Shown piece by piece: positions 20 to 4,038 of a stretch of 37,500 nt of DNA. The stretch spans positions 1 through 37,500 of the forward strand of contig JAJDTB010000070.1 in assembly GCA_022827345.1 (NCBI GenBank), written 5' to 3'. Numbering within the stretch: position 1 is the stretch's first letter; each line of letters begins with the position of its first letter. The DNA is from Gemmatimonadota bacterium (GTDB lineage: Bacteria; Gemmatimonadota; Gemmatimonadetes; Longimicrobiales; Gaopeijiaceae). The translations under genes and the position numbers were made by a program. The notes beneath the pieces are model-generated. The model saw nothing but the letters and a program-made list of their open reading frames with translations, was not told the origin of the DNA and ran no database searches.

Positions 20-423
20 TCTCGTTCTCCTCTCTGTGGTTAGTGAGTTGTTTGAAGCACTTCTCATCTAACCCCGGCGAGGCCGGCTTGGCCACCGTCC
101 TTTCCTTAGGCCTACTGTCAGGTGATTACTGTACTACAACATTCCGTGACTCCGCCCTCTTGGCGTCCAGTGGCATTCTACTTCCGGTGCCGTCGTGGAC
201 ACTGAGAGGCAACTGAACGCTTCTCCTCGGGCATGCCGTCAGAGATGCCGGATGGGATCGGGCACCCCCCCCAAGATTCCCGACATTTACCCCCGTTTTC
301 CCGCCATTTCAACCCGATCGACCCCGACACGCCCCAGCGGCAAGAAGCGCAGATCGTGCAGTCCCAGTTATACTTACAGGATTTCTTGCCTTAATTCGCA
401 TCCCCTCTTGGTCGTCTCCTAAG
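20..423 (-). promoter_or_regulatory. About 400-bp non-coding leader/promoter region of the left-edge gene
   Basis: I see no credible gene in this stretch, and by eye it is less GC-rich than its surroundings. Read on the minus strand it holds, in order: a candidate -10 box TATAAC (complement of 367-372) with only a weak -35; seven G-tracts between 335 and 265, including a run of eight G; an 18-codon mini-ORF (234 to 178, MPEEKRSVASQCPRRHRK) without a clear ribosome binding site; a small CCGGC/GCCGG hairpin at 74-86; a 10-bp hairpin at 38-73; and the ribosome binding site of the edge gene. If the -10 box is real, the transcript leader would be roughly 340 nt, which is long enough to regulate. 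The mini-ORF may be chance. Confidence 0.45.
38..73 (-). promoter_or_regulatory. Leader hairpin just upstream of a ribosome binding site
   Basis: On the minus strand GGTTAG-A-TGAG pairs with CTCACTAACC. This gives ten base pairs with one bulged A and a 15-nt loop. The 3' foot ends about three bases before the purine-rich ribosome binding site of the gene starting at 19. The position suits control of translation or protection of the 5' end; the function is inference. There is no U-run after it, so it does not look like an intrinsic terminator. Confidence 0.45.
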
Positions 424-465
424 CCTAAGCAGTAGGCCCCAGGTTCGAGTCCTGGCGGGGACGTT
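424..465 (+). repeat. tRNA-Arg(CCT) 3'-half remnant, copy 1 (direct repeat)
   Basis: Read on the plus strand this matches a tRNA from the anticodon to the discriminator. It has anticodon CCT (424-426), then AA and the 3' side of the anticodon stem. A perfect T-arm follows (CCAGG, TTCGAGT, CCTGG at 439-455), then the acceptor 3' strand CGGGGAC with a following G. No 5' half (acceptor GTCCCCG, D-arm) precedes it, so it cannot be a working tRNA. It is repeated at 2003-2044 with 39 of 42 bases identical. tRNA 3' halves are classic integrase attachment sites, so this could be one end of an inserted or excised segment; that is inference. Confidence 0.7.
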
Positions 466-473
466 GGGGAGGA

Positions 474-1964
474 TCACCAGGCGGCCGACAGCCGCAGATG
501 GCCGCCGTCGAACGGCAGCCGCGCGAAGTTGTCCAGGTCCCAGGCGACCCCGGCCGTCACCTCGAAGCCCGACCGGAACCGGTGGCCCGCTTCCGTGGTC
601 AGTCGCTGATTCTGCGCGGTGAGCCAGGGCGCCAGGAAGCCCGCATCGCGGTCCAAAAAGGCGTAGGCCAGGCGGCCCGTCCATCCCGCCTTCGGGTACC
701 GGACCAGGGCCGTCCGGGCGAAAACCTCACGGTCACGGTGCTCGCGGGAGGCGCCCCCTTCCGGCGAGCGCCATTCGGGTCGCCCCACCCGCACCAGGTC
801 CGTCTCGACCGCCCACAGCGGGTTCAGGCGCGTCCGCGCGCGGACACCCACGGTCACCGTCTGCTCGCGCAGAGTGAAGCCGACCCCGCTCGCGGGCGCC
901 TGCCGCTCGGTGTCCGCCCTCGCCCAGGTGCCCTGCAGCGCCAACGTCACGCGCTCGAGCGGCGTGACCTGGAGGAGTGCTCCCAGGAACGCGACCTTTT
1001 CGAGCTGGGTGAACGGAGCCAGACCGGTTGCCGGAAAGGTCACCTGCAGCTCGCTTCTTCGGCTCGATCCCGCGTGCAGCTCCGCTCGCCAGCGTGACGC
1101 CGTGGCTCTCAGGGTCGTGCGAGCCGCGAGGGGAGCCCCCGCGTAGTCGTAGTGGGCGTCCACCTCGTCCGCCCTCACTCCCAGGCCCTGGAAGATCGCC
1201 TCGTTGAATGCGTCGAGCGCTGCGAGGCGCACCTCCAGCGTCCAGCTCCGGTCTTCCCTGTCTCTCCAGGAGCGTGCCAGCGCGACCTCCACGTCTGCGG
1301 ACGGCTTGAAGAAGTGGACGCCGATCCCCACCTGCACGATCCACGGCGTCCCGAGCATGTCGCGCCAGCGCATGCCGACCCACGGGTAGTCGCGCCGTGC
1401 CGTGAGCGATCGCTCCCGGCGGTAGCGTGCCATCAGGTCCACGGGGCCGGAGACGTGGATCTCCTGGCGCCAGTCCAGGACGTTGAGGATGTGCGGATGG
1501 CTGATCGAGGCCCCGGCAACCCGAAAGCCGTTGGGCGCCTCGGCCCAGCGTGCGTCTTCGCCTGGATGGAAGAGGCTGCGGATTTCCAGCTCGTACTCGT
1601 CGTGGATTTCAGGGTTGAACCGCTGGAAGATGCCCTCTTCTGCCAGACGGCCGTAGTAGGCACCGTCGCGGTCGAGCAAGGACAGCCACACCTGATCCGC
1701 CCACACCGCGAGCGTCGCGACAGCCGCCGAGTCGGTCTCGCCCGCAGGGGAGGTCGCGGATTCCTCTACGCCCGACTGCGCGTGGAGCGACGGCACGGCG
1801 AGGAGGGAAACTCCGGCCAGCAGTCCCTGGACAAGGCCCCGCGAGCACCGAGAGCGGCGAGGCGCCGGACTGACAAGGTGCGGCGAGGGGCCAATAGCAG
1901 CGCTATTGGGCTGAGTAGCAACGCAGAGCCGCAGTGCTGAAGGCGTCAGGTGTATACTTAACAT
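474..1964 (-). CDS. Exported, outer-membrane-barrel-like protein of unknown function
   Basis: The 496-residue product is not a family I recognise. Residues about 36-62 form an arginine-led hydrophobic signal ending in an Ala-x-Ala-like cleavage site (HA|QS). The mature part is rich in alternating polar and hydrophobic strands with many aromatic and charged residues. It ends in Leu-Ser-Ala-Ala-Trp; an aromatic C-terminal residue is typical of BAM-assembled beta-barrels. The start is uncertain. The ATG at 1964 is the only good in-frame initiator, but it places about 35 unusual residues before the signal, has no clear ribosome binding site, and may be leaderless. A perfect 8-bp palindromic hairpin lies inside this early coding stretch. 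The gene is alone between two tRNA-Arg remnants and ends 8 bp from copy 1, so it may be mobile or recently acquired cargo. Confidence 0.7.
   Translation of the reverse strand: MLSIHLTPSALRLCVATQPNSAAIGPSPHLVSPAPRRSRCSRGLVQGLLAGVSLLAVPSLHAQSGVEESATSPAGETDSAAVATLAVWADQVWLSLLDRDGAYYGRLAEEGIFQRFNPEIHDEYELEIRSLFHPGEDARWAEAPNGFRVAGASISHPHILNVLDWRQEIHVSGPVDLMARYRRERSLTARRDYPWVGMRWRDMLGTPWIVQVGIGVHFFKPSADVEVALARSWRDREDRSWTLEVRLAALDAFNEAIFQGLGVRADEVDAHYDYAGAPLAARTTLRATASRWRAELHAGSSRRSELQVTFPATGLAPFTQLEKVAFLGALLQVTPLERVTLALQGTWARADTERQAPASGVGFTLREQTVTVGVRARTRLNPLWAVETDLVRVGRPEWRSPEGGASREHRDREVFARTALVRYPKAGWTGRLAYAFLDRDAGFLAPWLTAQNQRLTTEAGHRFRSGFEVTAGVAWDLDNFARLPFDGGHLRLSAAW
1891..1909 (-). repeat. Perfect 8-bp inverted repeat near the start of the barrel-like gene
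   Basis: CCAATAGC and GCTATTGG are separated by a three-base loop. The element lies within codons about 19-25 of the 474-1964 gene, before the signal peptide. It could be an operator or an mRNA hairpin if transcription starts close by. It could also be chance, but a perfect 8-bp arm in a GC-rich background, made partly of A and T, stands out. Confidence 0.4.
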
Positions 1965-1980
1965 GACATAATGTAAGGTT
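1962..1980 (-). promoter_or_regulatory. Possible operator/promoter of the barrel-like gene
   Basis: This short AT-rich stretch lies directly over the ATG at 1964. On the minus strand CTTACAT, six bases and ATGTTAAG form an imperfect inverted repeat spanning roughly 1957-1977. A -10-like TACATT (complement of 1970-1975) would place a transcript start almost at the ATG, giving a leaderless mRNA. No good -35 hexamer is visible. It is reported because it is the only non-coding sequence between this gene and the tRNA remnant at 2003. Confidence 0.25.
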
Positions 1981-2002
1981 GTCTTTACGTATTGGGTCTC
2001 CT

Positions 2003-2044
2003 CCTAAGCAGCAGGCCCCAGATCCGAGTCCTGGCGGGGACGTT
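2003..2044 (+). repeat. tRNA-Arg(CCT) 3'-half remnant, copy 2 (direct repeat)
   Basis: This is the second copy of the 42-bp element at 424-465, in the same orientation, with three substitutions. Two of them damage the T-arm: CCAGA no longer pairs with CCTGG, and the loop is TCCGAGT. It is therefore the more decayed copy. Its antisense strand is translated as the C-terminus and stop codon of the DUF368 gene. The anticodon CCT is at 2003-2005. No tRNA 5' half is present upstream. Confidence 0.7.
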
Positions 2045-3278
2045 TGCGCCGCCGTCCGGCTCGATCGAGCCCGATGACCGCCGCCACCCCGAGCGCGAAC
2101 AGAAGCGTCACCGAGAGGACTTCCGGGTCGCCCGCGTCCGGCCAACCCGCCACTTCCCTGCCCTCGGCCGTGTACTCGGTAAAGGGCCACAGCTTGCGCA
2201 ACGATCCGACCATCAGCCCCGTCAGGACGGCGAGGGTTCCATCGCGCCACCGGGTCAGCAGCCGCTTGACCACACGCACGAAGGTCAGGAGCCCGATGGC
2301 CAGCGCCACGGCGAAGGTTGCGACGACAACAGCGGATGACGGGTCCCGGTAGGCGAGCGTCTGGGACAGCGAGTAGAACACGAAGTGGTAGAGCCCCAGC
2401 AGCAGCAGGACGAATGCGCCGGACACGCCCGGCAGCACAAGAGCAGAGATGGCGAGCACACCTCCCACGAATACATAGGCAAGTGCGGGATTGAGTCCGC
2501 CGGCAAGCTGCGCCGGTTGGACGACACCCGCAATCGCAACCGGAGCCTCGGCTGCCGCCAAAGTCCCGCTCGCGACGTTCCCGACGCTCCCGGACATCCT
2601 GGCGACAACCTCCACTTCGACGCTGGTTGCGCCCGCCGGTACCGCCATCGCGGTGGCCAGTCCGTAGGCGATGTCGCCGCGCGTCCCGTCTCCCGGAGCC
2701 AGCAGGGTCAGGTTCTGCGGAGTGAGCCGCACGTCCGCCTCGACCGGGGCCGCGAACTCCAGCGTCACCGACCCGCGTGCGTGGCCGCCGGTCGGCTCCG
2801 GCAGACCGACGAACCAGGCGGTGATGACGCAAGCGATCAGAGCAAGGATCCAGCGTGACGGGCCGCGGCGCTCCAGTTCACGCCACGGAACGACCACCGA
2901 CGCCAGGACGAGGCCCAGGAAGAAGCCCCGCATCTGGGCGGGATAGAGGCCGAGCAGCGGCGGCAGCACCTGCGCACCGATGGCGAAGGCGGGGAGGATG
3001 CCGGCGGCCAGCGAGGCCAGAAACAGCACCCGGCCGGCGTCGTGGCCCGCGGCACTGGCCGGCAGCCGGGACGGGTCCCTCAGCCCCGACACCGCAAGCG
3101 ACCAGAACGACCGGTCGCGCACCCGGCGCAGGGTCGCGGCACCGAGCCCCCCGATGGCGTCGATCAGGCGCGAATAGATGCCCAGGATGAGCGCGATCGT
3201 ACCGCCGGACACACCCGGGACCGCGTCGGCGGCTCCCATGCAGAGGCCCCGCAGCGCGTTGGCCAGCCAGTGCCTCAT
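2004..3278 (-). CDS. DUF368 membrane protein, probable undecaprenyl-phosphate translocase (PopT-type)
   Basis: The N-terminus carries the DUF368 signature (MGAADAVPGVSGGT, residues 14-27) and the second half repeats it as LPGVSGAFVLLLLGLY (282-297). DUF368 proteins have been shown to return undecaprenyl phosphate across the cytoplasmic membrane for reuse in envelope synthesis. At 424 residues it is well above the usual 260-320. About 100 residues (160-265), rich in Val, Ala, Gly and Thr and without obvious membrane spans, are inserted between membrane segments; this looks like an extracytoplasmic beta-type domain. The last dozen codons and the TAG come from an antisense tRNA-Arg remnant, giving the tail RPRQDSDLGPAA. 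It follows surE by 13 bp and begins with ATG without a clear ribosome binding site. Confidence 0.85.
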   Translation of the reverse strand: MRHWLANALRGLCMGAADAVPGVSGGTIALILGIYSRLIDAIGGLGAATLRRVRDRSFWSLAVSGLRDPSRLPASAAGHDAGRVLFLASLAAGILPAFAIGAQVLPPLLGLYPAQMRGFFLGLVLASVVVPWRELERRGPSRWILALIACVITAWFVGLPEPTGGHARGSVTLEFAAPVEADVRLTPQNLTLLAPGDGTRGDIAYGLATAMAVPAGATSVEVEVVARMSGSVGNVASGTLAAAEAPVAIAGVVQPAQLAGGLNPALAYVFVGGVLAISALVLPGVSGAFVLLLLGLYHFVFYSLSQTLAYRDPSSAVVVATFAVALAIGLLTFVRVVKRLLTRWRDGTLAVLTGLMVGSLRKLWPFTEYTAEGREVAGWPDAGDPEVLSVTLLFALGVAAVIGLDRAGRRRKRPRQDSDLGPAA

Positions 3279-3291
3279 CCGTGGGGGGCAA

Positions 3292-4038
3292 TCACAGGCT
3301 CAGATTCCATCCGCGCAGCTCGTCCAGCCGGCTGTAGCTGGTCAGGTCGAGGTGGAGGGGCGTGACCGAGATGTAGCCGTCCTCGATCGCCCGGTAGTCG
3401 CACTCCGGTCCGCCGTTCCAGTTGGCGACCCCACCGCCGATCCAGTAGTACTCCCGGCCGGAAGGATCGGGCGCGCGCGTGATCGCGTCGCTGTAGCGCC
3501 GCCTTCCCAGGTTCGTGACCCGCACGCCGCGCACCTCGTCCGGCGCCAGGGGCGGGAGGTTGATGTTGAGGAACTCGTGGCTCGGGATGCCGCGGGCGAC
3601 GATCTGGCGCAGGAGGCCGCTCACCACCGGTTGCCACCCCTCGAGCTCTTCGATGCTGCGGCCCACATAGGAAAACGCCACCGCGGGAACCCCCAGCATC
3701 GTGGCCTCCATCGCACCCGCCACGGTCCCGGAGTAGAGCACGTCCTCCCCCATGTTGGGGCCGTAGTTGATCCCGGACACGCAGAGGTCGGGGGGTGTGT
3801 CCAGCAGGTCGCCGACGGCCAGGATGACGCAGTCGGTGGGCGTCCCGTCCACGATGGTGGTTCCGTCGTGCGTCTTCCGCATTCGCAGCGGGCGATGCAG
3901 CGTGAGCGCGTTGCTCGAGGCGCTCTGCTCGCGGTCCGGGGCGACGATGTCGACCGAACCGATCTCATGGGCGGCTTCCGCCAGGATCCGGATTCCCGGC
4001 GACAGATAGCCGTCGTCGTTTGTGCAGAGAATCCTCAC
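3292..4038 (-). CDS. surE: SurE 5'/3'-nucleotidase (survival protein E)
   Basis: This is a metal-dependent phosphatase that hydrolyses nucleoside 5'- and 3'-monophosphates. The N-terminal metal site is clear (MRILCTNDDGY, acidic pair in NDDG), and the SGINYGPN motif that completes the active site is present. The length of 248 residues is normal. The start is GTG at 4038, directly abutting the TAG of the upstream merR-type gene, so the two are probably translated from one message. The family is cytosolic. Confidence 0.95.
   Translation of the reverse strand: MRILCTNDDGYLSPGIRILAEAAHEIGSVDIVAPDREQSASSNALTLHRPLRMRKTHDGTTIVDGTPTDCVILAVGDLLDTPPDLCVSGINYGPNMGEDVLYSGTVAGAMEATMLGVPAVAFSYVGRSIEELEGWQPVVSGLLRQIVARGIPSHEFLNINLPPLAPDEVRGVRVTNLGRRRYSDAITRAPDPSGREYYWIGGGVANWNGGPECDYRAIEDGYISVTPLHLDLTSYSRLDELRGWNLSL

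Follow-up and report, generated by a model that had tools for sequence, protein, structure and literature searches.

A lone outer-membrane-type gene between two displaced tRNA-Arg(CCT) halves in a Gemmatimonadota bacterium: a probable scar of tandem island insertion

Features of the locus

The window is the whole stretch of DNA that was analysed, 37,500 nucleotides, and comprises an entire contig (JAJDTB010000070.1, here C20) of the 75-contig genome of a Gemmatimonadota bacterium (GCA_022827345.1, here G000). Position 1 is a contig end. The following features were recognised near this end; attR, island and age designations follow the interpretation given below.

335..423, plus strand: P-arm at the right end of a younger tyrosine-integrase island; across 277-468, identity to the attR ends of the islands in relatives G015 and G011 is 87-89%
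424..465, plus strand: displaced 3' half of tRNA-Arg(CCT), probable attR of the younger island; 42/42 identical to the intact tRNA region on contig C40
474..1964, minus strand: lone probable outer-membrane protein gene of an orphan family (ORF; conserved part about 474-1823)
1818..1990, minus strand: leader-like dispersed repeat that precedes this gene and is joined to it in frame; about 30 copies in the same genome, 10 copies aligned
2001..2044, plus strand: probable older displaced 3' half of tRNA-Arg(CCT); 39/42 against the other copy, 3' flank matching the one at the DUF368-side half of G009
2004..3278, minus strand: DUF368 / undecaprenyl-phosphate translocase-like gene (PF04018, E 3.5e-57), conserved chromosomal neighbour of the site
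3292..4038, minus strand: SurE-like gene (presumably, judging by its sequence), conserved chromosomal flank that adjoins DUF368 in relatives

A sequence-only reading had described two 42-bp elements, 424-465 and 2003-2044, as 3' halves of tRNA-Arg(CCT) lacking a 5' half, and both coordinates and identity are correct. Compared directly, the two window copies are identical at 39/42 positions and have the same orientation; a match of this quality is expected by chance anywhere in the window about 2e-9 times. Each spans the tRNA from the anticodon CCT to the discriminator plus 2 nt. The 5' half is absent at both, and ARAGORN predicts no tRNA at either. The 2003-2044 copy differs by three substitutions, as expected of an older copy, which may weakly hint at its age. 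Its left flank is unlike that of the 424-465 copy, its right flank matches the flank of the DUF368-side half in G009, and the arm present at the other half copies is absent. The stretch 2004-2042, read antisense, encodes the last ~12 residues and the stop codon of the DUF368 ORF. Each of the 23 genomes searched in this genus has a single copy of the DUF368 gene.

The interval 466-2002 holds a single long ORF of coding character (474-1964) and no recombinase, in agreement with the earlier description of one gene without integrase or transposase. Its product has no Pfam or NCBIfam match; another 14 complete or almost complete copies share 83-95% amino-acid identity with it. It is probably an outer-membrane beta-barrel protein, to judge from a signal-peptide-like N-terminus and a C-terminal aromatic residue (both assessed by eye only); the AlphaFold2 prediction has a mean pLDDT of 28. 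The ORF (hereafter the barrel gene) takes its start codon and its first ~40 codons from the repeat at 1818-1990. The upstream part of this repeat is AT-rich, a small palindrome is present, and an open frame follows in several of the ten aligned copies. The link between the gene and the older half (1864-2002) is represented by one contig alone.

The arm and the integrase family

The arm to the left of position 424 (about 335-423) is common to the half copies of G015, G011 and G009. About 39 copies were found in the own genome, many of them 5-15 kb from an integrase of one tyrosine-integrase family. This family has about 26 near-complete members in G000 (55 matches including fragments; e.g. on contigs L120-L143), which are 69-76% identical to the integrase of G015. 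In 8 of the 11 elements in which an integrase and an arm could be paired, the longest word shared by both ends was 9-12 bp, against a mean of 6 bp for non-cognate pairs (n=110, one as long as 13; Mann-Whitney p 1e-6). The sharing of the arm with other half copies, its recurrence near family integrases and the words common to both ends mark the copy at 424 as the probable right end of a younger island, of which positions 1-334 are presumably the remainder.

The integrase elements of G000 carry short element-specific direct repeats at fixed distances, and some family copies have inserted, as judged by eye, into another integrase gene or into a gene resembling mobC. A tRNA-Ile of the same genome (L120, 2588-2661) has an integrase on either side, each with its C-terminus towards the tRNA; a tRNA-Arg of G015 (L027, 16848-19402) lies between two integrases in the same manner.

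The intact tRNA gene

An intact tRNA-Arg(CCT) elsewhere in the genome had been named as a sign of insertion at a tRNA gene. It is present on contig C40 (2562-2635), is the only intact one in the genome, and is 42/42 identical to the 424 copy. The genes upstream of it, named by eye, encode an Ig-like protein and a threonine-dehydratase-like protein. Since both are also found upstream of tRNA-Arg(CCT) in G001, G007, G016 and G021, the short end of C40 would face the left end of the window in the expected gene order. The two contigs are thus probably linked physically, through a join that is not assembled. Intact tRNA and cognate 3' fragment both occur in G000, but on separate contigs; in G009 and G015 they share one contig and one orientation. 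No integrase was found in the first 12 kb of the window or, on C40, within 2.5 kb downstream of the tRNA; the remainder of the younger island is unassembled.

The locus in related genomes

The genomes of the relatives were assembled from metagenomes and belong to Gemmatimonadota (records named Gemmatimonadetes, Longimicrobiales and BD2-11 clade); the bacteria are presumably sponge inhabitants. Where both genes lie on one contig, the distance from tRNA-Arg(CCT) to DUF368 in same-genus relatives is 0.1-17 kb. Differing genes fill the interval, in some cases as tyrosine-integrase islands with the tRNA at one end and a 3'-half copy at the other. Two sites are nearly empty, with the tRNA ~120 bp (G013) and ~550 bp (G002) from DUF368. 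A tyrosine integrase lies beside tRNA-Arg(CCT) in G015, G009, G020, G022 and G003, and remnants of one in G007, G012 and G021. Wherever the contig permits placement, half copies are located at the tRNA or at its DUF368-side locus.

The gene order in G015 is tRNA, tyrosine integrase (PF00589, ~50 bp from the tRNA), type ISP restriction enzyme and other genes, arm, tRNA 3' half, DUF368. This island of ~10.5 kb lacks the barrel gene and has one half copy, and is one of the intermediates to be expected. In G009, the closest relative, the intact tRNA abuts the barrel gene, which is followed by a larger remnant ending in arm and half copy beside DUF368. The barrel gene also directly adjoins the intact tRNA in G016 and G019. 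A 5'-half copy of the tRNA was not found in the 19.8 kb searched upstream of the tRNA of G009. For the barrel-gene copies of G021 and G002, whose flanks are mosaics, clean empty sites were not found.

Origin of the locus

The locus is very probably a tandem-insertion (accretion) scar left at tRNA-Arg(CCT) by tyrosine-integrase islands. Among the readings considered this is the best supported, because the relatives provide near-empty sites, an island without the gene, and the gene beside an intact tRNA; it also upholds the earlier suggestion of repeated insertion at a tRNA gene, given the intact tRNA on C40 and the integrases and half copies found at the same locus in relatives. The interval 466-2044 is best explained as a decayed, integrase-less remnant, similar to a CIME, that was displaced by a younger island.

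In the ancestral state the tRNA would have adjoined the DUF368 gene. A tyrosine-integrase element would then have inserted by a crossover in the anticodon region, restoring the tRNA at its left end and leaving beside DUF368 the 3'-half copy that is now 2003-2044. This first element would have decayed to little more than the barrel gene at its tRNA-proximal end. A second, younger island would later have entered this tRNA too, so that a new half copy, 424-465, came to separate it from the old remnant. That the copy at 2003 is the older scar is suggested by its three substitutions, its different left flank, and its right flank matching the DUF368-side half of G009; the barrel gene abutting the intact tRNA in G009 corresponds to the arrangement predicted for the time before the younger island. 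The older element presumably lost its arm at 2003, by deletion or replacement, with the arrival of the dispersed repeat. The half copies, the intermediates and the integrase family are seen directly by comparison, and the order of the insertions is the likely one that follows from them. The barrel gene would have been passenger cargo, probably passive, that spread among species of the genus.

Spread of the barrel gene and alternative explanations

The locations of the barrel gene differ between lineages. In G000/G009, G016/G019 (tRNA-Arg) and G003, no more than about 70 bp separate its stop codon from a tRNA att site. In G003 it adjoins a half that reads as tRNA-Pro-like and is preceded by the same arm, and at L065 it adjoins integrase-end sequence (nhmmer E 1.8e-9) and a tRNA-Leu. 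No att signal was seen near the copies located outside tRNAs and outside the tRNA-Arg-DUF368 interval. A fixed terminus of a mobile unit was considered and not accepted: homology stops after CGCGCYAG in several copies and runs 50 bp further in others.

It is possible, though unlikely, that one recombinase-less outer-membrane gene is repeatedly carried to tRNA att sites by a greatly expanded integrase family acting in trans, and circulates in this way between species of a symbiont genus. Unlikely as well is the earlier proposal that 466-2044 is a minimal non-autonomous cassette of one gene and two att cores moved by such integrases. The recombinase from elsewhere that it calls for is plausible, with about 26 near-complete members of the relevant integrase family in the genome; at several independent places (tRNA-Arg, G003, L065) the end of the barrel gene is 9-70 bp away from the att side, and homology between its copies is nearly confined to the ORF. 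However, the arm carried by the integrase elements is missing at 2003, a gene copy with a half tRNA on each side was found in no other genome, the copies away from tRNAs and the tRNA-Arg-DUF368 interval have no att signal nearby, and the flanks beyond the ORF diverge to varying extents rather than at one fixed terminus. No evidence was found for 466-2044 as an active cassette, and that part of the proposal was not sustained.

Across 18 species, identity at fourfold sites of the barrel gene is 0.80-0.95 (mean 0.88); the averages for DUF368, SurE and Der are 0.46-0.50. Trees were computed with IQ-TREE, and the species tree, built from DUF368 plus SurE, was rejected for the barrel gene (AU p = 0.002), yet the closest sister species still group in its tree; this indicates spread between lineages followed by vertical descent. 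These comparisons demonstrate, at the level of sequence, that the barrel gene has spread horizontally among species of the genus. Vertical inheritance of a gene unusually constrained in its nucleotides, with only its location changing, would accord with the clustering of sister species; it is nevertheless very unlikely, in view of the rejected species tree and the differing locations. Moreover, 49% of the fourfold sites are variable, mostly in single species (56% would be expected for recent star-like spread), and homoplasy at them is low (CI 0.71), a pattern that is not explained by constraint plus a few saturated free sites. Overlapping antisense coding as a cause of the fourfold conservation is unsupported, the antisense frames containing stops.

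A dispersed tRNA-derived repeat family (SINE- or MITE-like) flanking the gene by chance, also proposed earlier, would fit two copies 1.5 kb apart and is rejected as extremely improbable, since the half element occurs in the genome only at the intact tRNA and twice in the window, with two weaker matches besides (tRNA-Arg(TCT) and a 33-bp partial at E 9e-4), and keeps in relatives to the tRNA and DUF368-side positions described above.

At L037 (7150-9180) a two-component-system-like module is 90-97% identical across several species and has a recurrent sharp end at contig edges. It is apparently another horizontally moving segment.

Comparison with known systems

Islands in tRNA genes are known to be marked by an intact tRNA, a displaced fragment and an anticodon-centred crossover (PMC4383910), and the occurrence of such islands in tandem, together with displaced pieces of the tRNA, has been documented (PMC4383910, PMC5704250). 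Like Islander-type islands (PMC4383910), the locus has in its relatives an integrase beside the tRNA, an anticodon-centred crossover, a 3' fragment at the far end and tandem occupation. Unlike them, the inner interval 466-2002 is integrase-less and only 1.5 kb long, and would fail the integrase and 2-kb length filters.

The locus also resembles the model in which ICEs and IMEs decay and accrete to give CIMEs (PMC5704250): att sites lie on both sides, recombinase and transfer genes are absent inside, and another island stands in tandem. It differs in that one gene is left and that the distal att has no arm, which makes mobilization doubtful and would argue against mobilization of the remnant in cis. 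Among the small set of parent-island proteins that was searched, none was recognised as the product of a transfer gene. A larger version of the remnant, with arm and half copy, is present in G009, and the remnant of G000 probably derives by deletion from a larger element. The islands at ssrA in Dehalococcoides (PMC3146451) are likewise integrated at a single RNA gene, and are mobilised there; target, phylum and recombinase differ.

The bracketed gene is thus explained by known island accretion, and what is unusual is its wide spread between related species. A single gene, probably for a surface protein, has recently spread within a Gemmatimonadota genus known only from metagenomes. The ~26 near-complete related integrases with different targets in one genome may offer a natural system for the diversification of integrase specificity.
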